A stretch of DNA of 48,171 nucleotides from Halorubrum tebenquichense DSM 14210. Lineage in GTDB: Archaea; Halobacteriota; Halobacteria; Halobacteriales; Haloferacaceae. Of the stretch, positions 17,124-21,419 are shown piece after piece; position 1 is the stretch's first letter, and each line of letters opens with the position of its first letter. Made by a program: the position numbers and the translations under genes. The stretch is from NCBI RefSeq assembly GCF_000337415.1, contig NZ_AOJD01000031.1:4592-52762 (forward strand), given 5' to 3'. Under the pieces are notes generated by a model. It saw only the letters and a list, made by a program, of their open reading frames with translations. It had not been told where the DNA came from and did not search any database.

Positions 17124-18164
17124 CTACGGCCTGATGACGGCGCGGCCGTCGATCTCCCGGTGTTCGAGTTTCTCGGCGACCGCGTTGATCTCGCCGAGGT
17201 CGTACCGGCTCGTGTGGAGGTCGACGTCGCCCTGCTCGACGAGCGCGACGAGCTCCTGAAGCTCCGCGTACCGGCCGACGATGTTGCCGACGAAGGAGAA
17301 CTCGCCGTTCACCAGCGCCTGCGACGGCTCGTGGACGTGCCCGCCGTAGCCGATGATGTGGTGGTCGCCGCCGGCGGCGGTGATCTCGGGCGCGTAGCCG
17401 GTCGTCACGTCCTCGCCGACGAAGTCGAGCACCTGCGCCGCCCCCGTGCCGTCCGTGATCGCCTCGATCTCGGCGGGCACGTCGTCGTCGGACGGGTTGA
17501 CGAGGTGGTCCGCGCCGTAGCTGTCCGCCAGGTTCAGCGCCGACTCCTTCAGGTCGACCGCCGTAATCCGCGCCGCGCTCATCGCGTCGAGACACTGGAG
17601 GCCGATGTGGCCGAGCCCCCCGACGCCGACGACGACCGCGTGGTCGCCGGGGTTCAGCTCCGCGACCGCCTTCTTGACCGCGTGGTACGCGGTGATGCCG
17701 GCGTCGGCGTGGGGCGCGATGTCGACGGGGTCGACGCCGCTCGGTAGCGGGATCACCGAGCGCTCGCTGGTGTGGAGGTACTCGGCGAAGCCGCCGTCAG
17801 TCGTGAGCCCGTTGAACGCGTCGTTCTCGCAGTGCATCGTCTCGCCGAGCCGGCAGGGGCGACACGTGCCGCAGGTCTGGACCGGGTGACAGATCACCGG
17901 GTCGCCCGGCGACACCAGGTCGACCTCGTCGCCCGTCTCGACGACCGTGCCGGCGTTCTCGTGGCCGAGCGTCATCGGGAGCTCCTGCGGGACGTACTCC
18001 GCCCACATCCCCTCGATGATGTGGTTGTCCGTCTGACACCACCCCGCCCCCTCGACCTCGACGATCACGTCGTCGGGTCCGGTCGCCGCCGGCCGGTCGA
18101 CCTCGTCGATGGTGAGTCCCTCGCTCATGTCGTCCGTGTACTCGTGGAGTCTGGCTGCTCGCAT
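17124..18164 (-). CDS. Zinc-dependent alcohol dehydrogenase (MDR family)
   Basis: 346 residues. Oxidises an alcohol with NAD(P). Catalytic zinc ligands C43 and H68-E69 (GHEN) are present; the structural zinc has its full set C98, C101, C104, C112 (TCGTCRPCRLGETMHC). The cofactor loop GVGGLG spans 180-185, and an acidic residue after the second strand (AVDLKES) suggests NAD rather than NADP. The pattern, including HTSRYDLGEINAVAEKL near the C-terminus, matches the alcohol dehydrogenases found in bacterial propane monooxygenase clusters. Its divergent neighbours (amidohydrolase, DUF59) fit that too. A short-chain secondary or primary alcohol is the likely substrate; inference. Confidence 0.92.
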   Translation of the reverse strand: MRAARLHEYTDDMSEGLTIDEVDRPAATGPDDVIVEVEGAGWCQTDNHIIEGMWAEYVPQELPMTLGHENAGTVVETGDEVDLVSPGDPVICHPVQTCGTCRPCRLGETMHCENDAFNGLTTDGGFAEYLHTSERSVIPLPSGVDPVDIAPHADAGITAYHAVKKAVAELNPGDHAVVVGVGGLGHIGLQCLDAMSAARITAVDLKESALNLADSYGADHLVNPSDDDVPAEIEAITDGTGAAQVLDFVGEDVTTGYAPEITAAGGDHHIIGYGGHVHEPSQALVNGEFSFVGNIVGRYAELQELVALVEQGDVDLHTSRYDLGEINAVAEKLEHREIDGRAVIRP

Positions 18165-18345
18165 GTGACCTATTCTCTCACACCCTTCATCATAAACGTT
18201 CGTTGTGGTTTCGTCTCCGGCGCGATCGGCCGCGAACGCGCCCCCAGAAGGGATCTGCGGACCGCCGACTAAACGCGAAAACGCGGGAATAATTTACCTG
18301 AATGATCCTTATAGTTATATGGTATCAACCCACATACCAATTCGT
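18165..18345. promoter_or_regulatory. Divergent promoter region of adh and amidohydrolase
   Basis: On the minus strand a gtttatgatg element (about 18187-18197) lies about 27 nt before the adh ATG. On the plus strand cttatagttatatgg (about 18308-18322) precedes the ATG at 18346 by about 30 nt. The gcgggaataattt tract lies between. Sharing one short region suggests co-regulation. Confidence 0.5.
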
Positions 18346-19407
18346 ATGTACGAGATGGACGGCGAGGAGATATTCGTTATCGACGGCCACGTTCACCTGT
18401 GGGACGCGCGGCAGGAGAACATCATCCACGAGGGGGGCGAGCAGTTCCTTCAGTGCTTCTACGACTACCACACCGGGTTCACGCCGGAGGAGGAGCAGTG
18501 GGACATCGACACGTATCGCCACTACGGGGCCGACAGGATGACCGAGGACCTGTTCGGGAACGCGACGGCCGACATGGCGATCTTCCAGCCCACGTACCTC
18601 GACGACTTCTACGACGAGGGGTTCAACACGACCGAGCAGAACGCGGAACTCGCCGAGGAGTATCCGGAGCGGTTCGTCCTGAACGGAAGCTTCGATCCGC
18701 GGGACGGCGAGGAGGGGTTACGGTACCTCGAACACCTCAAGGAGGAGTACGACATCCCCGGGGTGAAGCTGTACACAGCGGAGTGGCGCGACGACTCGAA
18801 GGGGTGGCGTCTCGACAGCGACGACGCCTTCGAGTTCTTGGAGAAGTGCGCCGACCTCGGCATCGAGAACATCAACGCCCACAAGGGGCCGACGATCCGC
18901 CCGCTCAACCGCGACGCGTTCGACGTGAAGGACATCGACGACGCCGCCTCCTCGTTCCCGGAACTCAACTTCATCGTCAACCACGTCGGTCTCCCGCGGC
19001 TCGACGACTTCTGTTGGATCGCCGCGCAGGAACCGAACGTGTACGGGGGGCTGGCGGTCGCCTCCGCGATGACGACGAACCGCCCGCGGAAGTTCGGCGA
19101 GATCATGGGCGAGCTGCTGTACTGGCTCGGCGAGGACCGAGTCCTGTTCGGCTCCGACTACGCCCTGTGGAACCCCGACTGGCTCGTCGATCAGGTGATG
19201 AACGCGGAGCTCACCGACGAACAGCGGGACGAGTACGGGGTCGAGCTCGACGTCGAGACGATGAAGAAGGTTATGGGCGAGAACGCCGCGGAGCTGTACG
19301 ACATCGACATCGAGGCGAAGAAGCGGCAGTTCCGCGACGACGACATCACCGAGCGGTTCGACCTCGGCACTCACTACGGCGGCGACGCGGGGGCCGCGGC
19401 GGACTGA
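18346..19407 (+). CDS. Amidohydrolase (TIM-barrel metal-dependent hydrolase) of the propane monooxygenase-associated type
   Basis: 353 residues. Begins MYEMDGEEIFVIDGHVHLWD, with the first metal-binding pair H15-x-H17. Further expected ligands are in INAHKGPTIRPLN, IVNHVGLPR and LFGSDYALWN (Asp). The sequence strongly resembles, from memory, amidohydrolase-2 proteins located in Rhodococcus and Mycobacterium propane/acetone monooxygenase operons (shared blocks DMAIFQPTYL, GFNTTEQNAELA, GVKLYTAEW). Its exact reaction in those clusters is not settled. The start at 18346 is supported by the TATA box about 30 nt upstream; alternative ATGs lie at 18319 and 18355. The stop overlaps the next ATG by one base (TGATG). 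Confidence 0.88.
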   Translation: MYEMDGEEIFVIDGHVHLWDARQENIIHEGGEQFLQCFYDYHTGFTPEEEQWDIDTYRHYGADRMTEDLFGNATADMAIFQPTYLDDFYDEGFNTTEQNAELAEEYPERFVLNGSFDPRDGEEGLRYLEHLKEEYDIPGVKLYTAEWRDDSKGWRLDSDDAFEFLEKCADLGIENINAHKGPTIRPLNRDAFDVKDIDDAASSFPELNFIVNHVGLPRLDDFCWIAAQEPNVYGGLAVASAMTTNRPRKFGEIMGELLYWLGEDRVLFGSDYALWNPDWLVDQVMNAELTDEQRDEYGVELDVETMKKVMGENAAELYDIDIEAKKRQFRDDDITERFDLGTHYGGDAGAAAD

Positions 19408-20315
19408 TGTCGGGGAGCAGCGCGGACCCGACGAGCGGCCGGGGCGGCGACGCGTCGGACGACCTCGCCGGCGACCCCGTCGACCCCGCGGACGACGAGC
19501 GAGGCAGATCGGCGGTGAGAGACCGACTCGACCGGGTCGAGGACCCGGAACTCGCCCGCTCGATCGTCGAGCTCGACTACGTCGACGCGATCGACATCGA
19601 CGGCGACCGGGTCGAGGTCCGGTTCACGCTCCCGACCGCGTGGTGTTCGCCCGCGTTCGCGTGGATGATGGCGACCGACGCCCGCGACGAGGTCGAGGGG
19701 CTCGACTGGGTCGACGAGGCGCGGATCGAACTGTGCGACCACATGCACGGCGAGGAGATAACGACCGGCGTTAACGCGCGGGACACCTTCGGCGAGACGT
19801 TCCCGGACGCGGACGGCGGGGTGGCGGAGGTGCGCGCGGCCATCGCCGACAAGGCCCGCGTCTCGACGCAACGCGACGCGATACGCGCCCTGCTCGACGC
19901 CGGCGTCGACCCGCAGCAGGTCGTCTCGCTCGACCGCGCGGACGTGGCGGTCGCCGGCGACGAGGCACACGTCGACCTCGGGGGCCTCTCGGTCGTCGTC
20001 GACGCCGAACCGGTCGCCGACTACCTCGACCGCGTCGAGACGAGCGGCCACGTGACCGCGGGCGACGACACCCTGTTCCTGACGCCGGAGGGCGACTCAA
20101 TCCCGGCCGAGCGGCTGGACGTGGTCCAGAAACGCTCCCGCCTCGCGAGCGTGAACATGGGCGGCCAGGGCGCAGTGTGCGACGCGCTCCACCGCGCCCG
20201 CCACGGCCCCGACGGCCCGGACGGATCTGGGGTATCGTACCTCGGGGAATCGGGCGAGTACGACGGTGACGTCGACGAGTTCACCTCGACGTGGACGCTC
20301 GACGCCGACGACTGA
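19407..20315 (+). CDS. DUF59/MIP18-domain protein (iron-sulfur assembly-like) of the same module
   Basis: 302 residues. After an acidic, disordered N-terminus (1-35) comes a MIP18/PaaD-type domain (about 36-100): ELARSIVELDYVDAIDID, RFTLPTAWCSPAFAWMMATD, with Cys in the TAWCSP motif, and ELCDHMHGEEI. The C-terminal half has no motif I can name. Members of this family help mature metal centres, and this long form is found beside amidohydrolase and diiron monooxygenase genes in bacteria. Translation is coupled to the amidohydrolase (TGATG). Here a metal-centre maturation role for an enzyme encoded elsewhere is inference. Confidence 0.8.
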   Translation: MSGSSADPTSGRGGDASDDLAGDPVDPADDERGRSAVRDRLDRVEDPELARSIVELDYVDAIDIDGDRVEVRFTLPTAWCSPAFAWMMATDARDEVEGLDWVDEARIELCDHMHGEEITTGVNARDTFGETFPDADGGVAEVRAAIADKARVSTQRDAIRALLDAGVDPQQVVSLDRADVAVAGDEAHVDLGGLSVVVDAEPVADYLDRVETSGHVTAGDDTLFLTPEGDSIPAERLDVVQKRSRLASVNMGGQGAVCDALHRARHGPDGPDGSGVSYLGESGEYDGDVDEFTSTWTLDADD

Positions 20316-20358
20316 GCCGCATTCGACCGGTCGGGCGACTCGGCGTCGGCCCCGGACC

Positions 20359-20559
20359 TCACCGAACCGGGCCGAGACCGCTCATTCCGCCGCCCGCGTC
20401 GCCCGGTCCGTCCTCCTCGGGCTCGCCGTGTCCCTCCTTCTCCAGCCCGTGGCGGCCGCTCGCGGCCCACTCGTCGCGGTCCCAGCCGCACTCGGGGCAC
20501 TCTCCCTCTCCCCAGTCGAACGGCTCGCCGCAGCCGAGACAGGCGTTATCCGTGTTCAT
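20359..20559 (-). CDS. Small zinc-ribbon protein (66 aa)
   Basis: Two Cys pairs, CLGCGE and CPECGW, separated by 12 residues form a zinc ribbon at the N-terminus; the tail is acidic and Gly-rich. The composition is haloarchaeal. It lies 32 bp upstream of the phosphoesterase gene on the same strand and could be the first or last gene of a short operon. Function unknown. Confidence 0.75.
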   Translation of the reverse strand: MNTDNACLGCGEPFDWGEGECPECGWDRDEWAASGRHGLEKEGHGEPEEDGPGDAGGGMSGLGPVR

Positions 20560-20591
20560 AGGTCACGATACGCACGGGCAGACAAAAGCGT

Positions 20592-21419
20592 TCACAACAG
20601 CTCGTCGAACTCGCCGAGCGGGGGGAACCGAAGAGCCGTCTCCGCGTCGCCGCCGTCGCGGCCCGGATCGACCACCACGGGCGCGAGGCCGGCCGCGTCG
20701 TCGACGAGCGGGGAGTCGAGCCCGGCGGTCGCCGCGTCGTTGACCGGGACGCCGGCGGCGAGCCGGGTGAACGCGGGCAACAACAGCACGTCGGCCCCGC
20801 GGTACGTCCCGGCACCGCAGAGGAAACAGGGCCGGCGGTCGCCCTCGATCTCGATCGTCGGATGGACGTGGCCGATCACGTACCGGTCGGCCGCGACCGA
20901 CGGGAGTTCGTGGCCGTGACAGACCGCGGTGGTGCGCGTCTCTTGGCCGTCCGCGTCAGTGTGCGTCTCCGAGCCGTGCGCAGTGGCGCGCGTTCCCGAT
21001 CCTCCCGCGACCGCCTCCTCGACGACGTACGCCTCCCGGACGGTCCCGTCCCACGCGTCCGCGAGCGCGGCGTCGTGGTTGCCGGCGACGAGTTCGAGGG
21101 CCGCCCCCCGGTCCGAACACGCCCCGCGGAGGGCCTCTACGGTCTCGACGGCGCGGTCGGTGACCCGGTCGAACGCGTGGACGACGTCGCCGGCGACGAC
21201 CGCCGTCGCCGGGTCGAACCGGTCGAGGAGCGCGCCGAACCGGTCGCGGAGGTCGTCGCGCTCGCCGAGCGGGAACGAGACGGCGGACGCCTCGCCGCGG
21301 CCGACGTGGAGGTCGGCGACGACGAGCGCGTCGGCCGCGGGAAGGTAGACCGCCCGCTCCGCGAAGGCGACGTCCGGGAACGCGGTTCCGGCCGCGGCGT
21401 CGGCGTCCGACCCCGTCAC
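20592..21419 (-). CDS. Metallophosphoesterase (archaeal ICC/SbcD-related)
   Basis: 275 residues from a GTG at 21417-21419. Calcineurin-like metal motifs in order: ADLHVG, AGDVVHAF, GNHDA, CHGHELP, GHVHP. This set and the spacing match the archaeal SbcD-related phosphoesterases, which are single-domain and lack the Mre11 capping region. Substrate unknown. The start overlaps the stop of the J-domain gene by 4 nt (GTGA), so the two are translationally coupled. Confidence 0.88.
   Translation of the reverse strand: MTGSDADAAAGTAFPDVAFAERAVYLPAADALVVADLHVGRGEASAVSFPLGERDDLRDRFGALLDRFDPATAVVAGDVVHAFDRVTDRAVETVEALRGACSDRGAALELVAGNHDAALADAWDGTVREAYVVEEAVAGGSGTRATAHGSETHTDADGQETRTTAVCHGHELPSVAADRYVIGHVHPTIEIEGDRRPCFLCGAGTYRGADVLLLPAFTRLAAGVPVNDAATAGLDSPLVDDAAGLAPVVVDPGRDGGDAETALRFPPLGEFDELL

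Follow-up and report, generated by a model that had tools for sequence, protein, structure and literature searches.

In bacterial operons for propane and acetone oxidation, genes for an amidohydrolase, a DUF59 protein (a 'metal-sulfur cluster biosynthetic enzyme') and an alcohol dehydrogenase lie side by side (PMC4428276, PMC6849523); in Mycobacterium smegmatis the Mim cluster is MSMEG_1971-1978 (PMC5445863). The published operons, which encode soluble diiron monooxygenases of the propane/acetone type (SDIMOs), show the genes for the amidohydrolase and the DUF59 protein as unnamed accessories to the monooxygenase, with no function assigned, and we found no functional study of either gene in the open-access literature searched. 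Here we analyse a locus with the same three types of gene in the archaeon Halorubrum tebenquichense DSM 14210, within a stretch of 48,171 nucleotides (contig NZ_AOJD01000031.1, positions 4,592 to 52,762 of the forward strand) that we call the window and whose numbering is used throughout. An initial annotation had described this locus as a monooxygenase accessory module without its monooxygenase. We find that the unit is the pair formed by the amidohydrolase (AMH) and the DUF59 protein, and that this pair probably has a role of its own, separate from an oxygenase. Although the two genes are already known as unexplained SDIMO companions, the open-access literature searched gave no description of them, for archaea or any other group, as a unit that stands without an SDIMO.

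A translationally coupled pair beside an independent alcohol dehydrogenase gene

The locus comprises the following features.

17124-18164, minus strand: ADH, a zinc-dependent medium-chain (MDR) NAD(P) alcohol dehydrogenase of 346 aa, with PF08240 and PF00107 both over cut-off
18165-18345, no strand: divergent intergenic region between ADH and AMH, with two conserved promoter-like blocks in the aligned Halorubrum intergenic regions
18346-19407, plus strand: AMH, an amidohydrolase-superfamily enzyme of the ACMSD/decarboxylase clan (PF04909, E 2e-46)
19407-20315, plus strand: DUF59 protein of two domains, the N-terminal one PF01883/CIAO2B-like (PF01883, E 1e-14)
20358-20559, minus strand: zinc-ribbon mini-protein of 66 aa with four cysteines, convergent with DUF59
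18203-20592, no strand: segment missing in a close relative that has the empty allele (genome G006, locus L170), spanning AMH, DUF59 and the zinc-ribbon gene

All three open reading frames of the initial annotation, the ADH, the divergent amidohydrolase and the DUF59 gene, were confirmed and have Pfam matches; its inventory had overlooked the convergent zinc-ribbon mini-gene of the haloarchaeal cassette. The longest AMH reading frame opens at 18205, yet the most likely start is 18346 (MYEMDGE), judging by the homologues and the layout upstream. The AMH stop codon and the DUF59 start codon share one base (TGATG), and the coupling that had been proposed extends well beyond the window: among 123 loci (not all independent), the two genes overlap by 1 nt in 53 and by 4 nt in 15, and are within 6 nt of each other in 40 more, so that 108 of the 123 show overlap or a spacing of at most 6 nt. 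In the aligned intergenic regions of Halorubrum, one conserved block lies on the ADH side (CATAAACGTTCGTT) and one on the AMH side (TGAACGATCCTTATAGTTAT), each where an archaeal promoter would be expected, and we infer that the two may be archaeal promoter elements. The low dN/dS values within Halorubrum (about 0.05-0.11 for AMH, 0.20-0.28 for DUF59 and 0.12-0.20 for ADH) indicate that all three genes are under purifying selection; together with the coupling and the conserved intergenic blocks, they rule out a relic or degenerate locus.

The co-occurrence of AMH and DUF59 is perfect. AMH (at least 66% identity) and DUF59 are found in the identical 87 of 292 halobacterial genomes and neither is found in the other 205 (Fisher p about 1e-76, ignoring relatedness), and in a contig scan of genomes DUF59 abuts AMH in all 80 AMH loci, 35 of them haloarchaeal and 45 bacterial. 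ADH follows a different pattern: it is present in 157 of the 292 genomes, 86 of the 87 with the pair and 71 without it, and within a sample of 35 Halorubrum genomes (genus judged from named relatives) it is present in 34 and the pair in 14. In the close relative with the empty allele, the gene order is the same and the flanks are 94-95% identical, yet 18203-20592 is missing and ADH directly adjoins a metallophosphoesterase-like gene. Given this clean empty site and the wider occurrence of ADH, the real unit is the translationally coupled AMH-DUF59 pair, a cassette gained or lost (in either direction) beside an independent ADH locus. The ADH, which had been counted as an integral third member of the module, is a separate gene.

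Genes for CobW-type metallochaperone GTPases adjoin the pair in Halohasta (L161:6284-7453) and Alteribacillus (L105:13412-14335). We considered these neighbours as evidence for metal delivery and set them aside, as there are two cases only.

Kinship with the companions of bacterial monooxygenases

The window AMH is 50-59% identical, over its length, to the copies in SDIMO clusters and 49-59% identical to relatives on bacterial plasmids that have DUF59 alongside; the remaining haloarchaeal amidohydrolases are only about 25-33% identical to it and lie outside the subfamily. The window DUF59 is 25-33% identical to SDIMO-linked DUF59 copies, with gene order kept, and the ADH is 44-49% identical to cluster-type bacterial ADHs as against 29-37% to its own-genome paralogues. 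By sequence comparison, AMH and DUF59 thus share their subfamilies with the corresponding proteins of SDIMO clusters. The ADH matches its counterpart there in type, and its subfamily, far more widespread, is not restricted to SDIMO clusters. Plasmid operons in Paracoccus aminophilus, Caballeronia, Aminobacter, Ponticoccus, Bradyrhizobium and Gemmobacter combine AMH and DUF59 with SDIMO alpha, reductase, beta, MmoB and GroEL genes and usually an ADH, and the arrangement that the initial annotation had given for bacteria is therefore accurate (see also PMC4428276, PMC6849523, PMC5445863). The kinship it proposed also withstood two checks, as phylogenies did not place the three proteins in unrelated subfamilies and their adjacency is conserved among haloarchaea. 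Its label fared less well: the proteins do match SDIMO companions, but 'monooxygenase accessory module' is misleading for a pair that stands alone in many lineages. In the SDIMO locus of Bradyrhizobium CER78 (L111:11929-12573), a second DUF59-like match directly follows the first, possibly a duplication.

On the AMH tree the haloarchaeal proteins form a single clade (support 100/98), and linkage to SDIMO genes requires about five changes. There are 74 AMH residues that are invariant across the haloarchaeal, SDIMO-free and SDIMO-linked groups, and no fixed difference between SDIMO-linked and SDIMO-free bacterial copies was found in either AMH or DUF59. The chemistry is therefore probably independent of the oxygenase, and the pattern suggests one conserved reaction in all of these settings.

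The pair occurs where no diiron monooxygenase is found

The initial annotation had noted that the window holds no diiron hydroxylase and left two alternatives, an oxygenase elsewhere in the genome or an oxygenase-free job. We searched for the SDIMO hydroxylase with the PF02332 profile, which was positive on known SDIMO plasmids. The whole H. tebenquichense genome, 99.7% complete, gave no match, so that the observation made for the window extends to the genome. Among the 292 Halobacteria the profile was positive in three (G095, G216 and G064; loci L051-L056), none of which has the AMH-DUF59 pair, and in none of the 87 with the pair. With only three SDIMO-positive Halobacteria, this disjointness is insignificant alone; the weight lies on the 87 of 87 pair-bearing genomes that lack an SDIMO. 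The profile of the coupling protein, PF02406, also gave no match, though no positive control matched either, and a tblastn search limited to the haloarchaeal loci gave no match to a GroEL-like chaperonin.

Returning to the contig scan, none of the 35 haloarchaeal AMH loci has SDIMO genes, and the 45 bacterial ones divide into 26 with SDIMO genes and 19 without, one of the latter cut by a contig end. For the 18 untruncated SDIMO-free loci, an SDIMO is encoded elsewhere in seven genomes (all annotated Alphaproteobacteria or Proteobacteria-type records) and none was detected in 11, five of which are isolates and some of the rest metagenome-assembled genomes (MAGs) that may be incomplete. These 11 include five Bacillota loci (L090, L092, Alteribacillus, Jeotgalibacillus and Paenibacillus); the others are from Thermomicrobium SKW109, a Ktedonobacterales MAG, an Ignavibacteriales MAG, Salinisphaera, Streptosporangium and an alphaproteobacterial MAG. 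On one plasmid, Thermomicrobium roseum DSM 5159 carries both the module (530 kb) and an SDIMO (about 900 kb).

These data bear directly on the idea that the three proteins assist or mature a propane/acetone-type diiron monooxygenase whose genes lie at another place in the genome. The trio genuinely equals the set that flanks bacterial SDIMOs, seven of the 18 bacterial genomes just described would fit such an arrangement, and in Mycobacterium sp. AT1 an amidohydrolase, an unknown gene and an ADH lie at a locus apart from the monooxygenase (PMC6849523). Against this stand the absence of PF02332 matches from the H. tebenquichense genome and the 87 pair-bearing Halobacteria, with positive controls, and the 11 SDIMO-free bacterial genomes, whose pairs show no fixed difference from the SDIMO-linked copies. 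We regard the idea as very improbable in general, and as refuted for H. tebenquichense itself, barring a hydroxylase too divergent for PF02332. The same genomes favour the other alternative, that of an oxygenase-free job.

The AMH enzyme has a canonical metal site

The predicted model of AMH (pLDDT 89.5) is a TIM barrel whose closest match is 3irs (Z 26.6), with members of the ACMSD/dihydroxybenzoate decarboxylase clan at Z about 22. In the numbering of the 362-aa reading frame that starts at 18319, H24, H188, H222 and D280 are invariant in 49 of 49 sequences, and H26 is present in 46 of the 49. AMH thus has the family score, the fold and the HxH/His/His/Asp metal and catalytic residues of the ACMSD type of PF04909, and it retains the canonical mononuclear metal site. 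With this fold and these ligands, a lyase or hydrolase fits AMH.

The same Pfam family contains amidohydrolase-related dinuclear oxygenases (AROs) such as AibH2, PtmU3 and SfbO, and AMH might itself be one of these, with DUF59 loading an Fe or Mn/Fe cofactor. The structural matches of AMH include SfbO (8sm6) and DitZ (8uyr, Z 19.1), and the iron-cluster-type partner and the acetone context make the idea attractive. The ligands of AibH2 are Asp25, His27, His211, Glu265, Asp337 and His340 (PMC7782822), and the dinuclear site of SfbO has three His and three carboxylates (PMC10811679). When these ligands are mapped by motif and strand order rather than by superposed coordinates, AMH has the invariant H24 in place of the first Asp, H222 in place of the Glu (beta-6) and Ile/Leu283 in place of the last His, so that the set Asp-x-His, His, Glu, Asp-x-x-His is not found; nor does a gene for a Rieske ferredoxin or reductase accompany AMH in the window. 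An ARO-type oxygenase is accordingly disfavoured, and we judge it to be very unlikely.

The DUF59 protein is tied to AMH

The DUF59 protein scores 55.1 bits against PF01883 (cut-off 23.5), and C80, H112, K149, C258 and R265 are invariant in 56 of 56 sequences. In the predicted model (pLDDT 85.7) the N-terminal domain is CIAO2B/MIP18-like (Z about 12) with the conserved Cys. The C-terminal half (window 19812-20216, residues about 136-270) shows a degenerate likeness to the core of tyrosine recombinases, with a borderline Z of 9.5 between residues 145-250 and Cre. An hhalign comparison of this half with integrases gave P 0.004 but a low probability (3.6%), so that the likeness may or may not reflect homology.

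A PF01883 domain and some similarity to the PaaD and SufT models could mean that the protein is a general iron-sulfur assembly factor whose link to AMH is one of position only. The similarity is weak, with scores far under the NCBIfam curated cut-offs (34.7 bits as against 180 for PaaD, 21.2 as against 202.6 for SufT), and the DUF59 gene tracks AMH exactly through 87 presences and 205 absences, whereas a housekeeping factor would not follow one accessory enzyme. We therefore hold a general assembly role to be very improbable.

The ADH and the zinc-ribbon mini-protein

The ADH has C43, H68, E69 and the four cysteines C98, C101, C104 and C112 invariant in the alignment. Its nearest solved structure is 1h2b (332 bits), the ADH of Aeropyrum pernix; Rhodococcus ruber ADH-A, at about 194-199 bits, is clearly a more remote match. 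The window ADH is a candidate secondary-alcohol dehydrogenase, which would act on 2-propanol/acetone.

The zinc-ribbon mini-protein carries the motifs CxxC and CPxCGW, and its family stands well apart from generic zinc ribbons (at least 61 bits as against at most 30), with no single Pfam family fitting its members. It was found in 41 of the 292 genomes, 40 of which have the AMH-DUF59 pair; in 36 genomes the gene lies at most 400 nt downstream of DUF59, and it is convergent in every case.

A possible role in short-chain carbonyl metabolism

AMH and DUF59 co-occur perfectly and are translationally coupled, the searches found no SDIMO hydroxylase in the genome, and the AMH metal site is canonical. 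On this basis we propose that AMH-DUF59 is one functional unit that works without any SDIMO, in which AMH would act on a short-chain carbonyl and DUF59 would be its dedicated partner, a reading to which we assign a probability of roughly 45%. In this scheme AMH would be a metal-dependent lyase, hydratase or hydrolase whose substrate might be a short-chain ketone, a hydroxyketone or a 2-oxoaldehyde intermediate, and the ADH, should it cooperate, would interconvert the related alcohol and carbonyl. The co-translated DUF59 protein may load or maintain the AMH metal site or be an obligate partner, joined in many haloarchaea by the zinc-ribbon mini-protein. Propane/acetone oxidisers would then have joined the unit, more than once, to an SDIMO that feeds the same class of intermediate.

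Expression data and gene neighbours point in this direction. In the Amycolatopsis-type strain A. chiangmaiensis DSM 45062 grown on 2-hydroxyisobutyric acid (2-HIBA) or acetone, the AMH homologue makes up about 3% of protein, with the ADH at 6% and the hydroxylase small subunit at 3.8% under the same conditions (PMC7176365); an abundance like that of the ADH and a hydroxylase subunit makes the AMH homologue look like a metabolic enzyme. A DJ-1/PfpI gene adjoins the SDIMO-free pair in Peribacillus and Alteribacillus, with homologous reading frames in Jeotgalibacillus and Paenibacillus. In Rhizobium N324 the SDIMO-free pair adjoins genes for glyoxalase I and a 2-hydroxyacid-dehydrogenase-type protein, and in Jeotgalibacillus it adjoins genes for an FAD-oxidase and Fe-S subunits of the glycolate/lactate-oxidase type (D-lactate-oxidase-like), again with homologous reading frames in Paenibacillus. 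The conserved residues, the abundance data and these carbonyl-metabolism neighbours together favour a lyase, hydratase or hydrolase with a short-chain carbonyl as its substrate.

Several observations weigh against this proposal. Ala replaces the ligand H26 in three Bacilli (L105, L110 and L115), with the other ligands kept, and the carbonyl-metabolism neighbours come from a handful of Bacilli and one Rhizobium. Around the haloarchaeal pairs, no recurrent neighbour apart from the ADH and the zinc ribbon gives a hint of a pathway. As the ADH occurs in the 71 genomes without the pair and is non-adjacent in at least five with it, a pathway shared with the ADH is not proven. That DUF59 acts on AMH, and not on some other target, is inferred solely from their linkage, and no member of the subfamily with an assay was found in the open-access literature searched.

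The same neighbours can be read otherwise: the pair may serve to detoxify methylglyoxal, a ketone adduct or another reactive carbonyl instead of supporting growth. DJ-1/PfpI or glyoxalase I genes next to it in Bacilli and Rhizobium would suit such a role, as would the patchy, accessory distribution in 87 of 292 haloarchaea. Two findings suggest catabolism instead: growth of strain DSM 45062 on acetone and 2-HIBA brings strong induction (PMC7176365), and in M. smegmatis there is co-expression with the Mim operon (PMC5445863). We see detoxification as a minority prospect, at about one chance in five in our estimation. Somewhat more doubtful still is a bolder version of the proposal, in which AMH-DUF59, with the zinc ribbon, would be a metalloenzyme system so far unrecognised, equipped with a metal-insertion factor of its own and turning over acetone, acetol or a related C3 carbonyl by a reaction new to amidohydrolases. 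Haloarchaea and members of other phyla would then have a short-chain alcohol/ketone route that depends neither on a diiron monooxygenase nor on acetone carboxylase.

The SDIMO-free organisms, among them culturable haloarchaea and Bacilli, separate the pair from the oxygenase and make its function directly testable, and the perfect co-occurrence offers a clean model of a DUF59 protein with a single dedicated client enzyme.

Comparison with known systems

The closest described systems are the group-5 SDIMO clusters (prmABCD of Rhodococcus/Gordonia and mimABCD of Mycobacterium), which have an amidohydrolase of the same subfamily, a DUF59 gene and an ADH adjoining. Unlike them, the haloarchaeal locus has no adjoining gene for a hydroxylase, reductase, coupling protein or GroEL and no hydroxylase found genome-wide; it has instead a divergent, independent ADH and an extra zinc-ribbon gene. 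AMH resembles members of the ACMSD/dihydroxybenzoate-decarboxylase clan (PF04909) in its TIM barrel and HxH/His/His/Asp site but is only 12-19% identical to them, belongs to a distinct subfamily and is paired with DUF59. With the AROs AibH2, SfbO and PtmU3 it shares Pfam family and fold, but not three of the six metal ligands or a Rieske partner. The window DUF59 protein has the N-terminal fold and invariant Cys of PaaD, SufT and CIAO2B (DUF59/MIP18) and differs from them in its extra C-terminal domain (C258, R265), its ties to AMH and, for PaaD and SufT, scores below the cut-offs. The ADH, finally, is an MDR zinc ADH like that of A. pernix (1h2b) and like R. ruber ADH-A.

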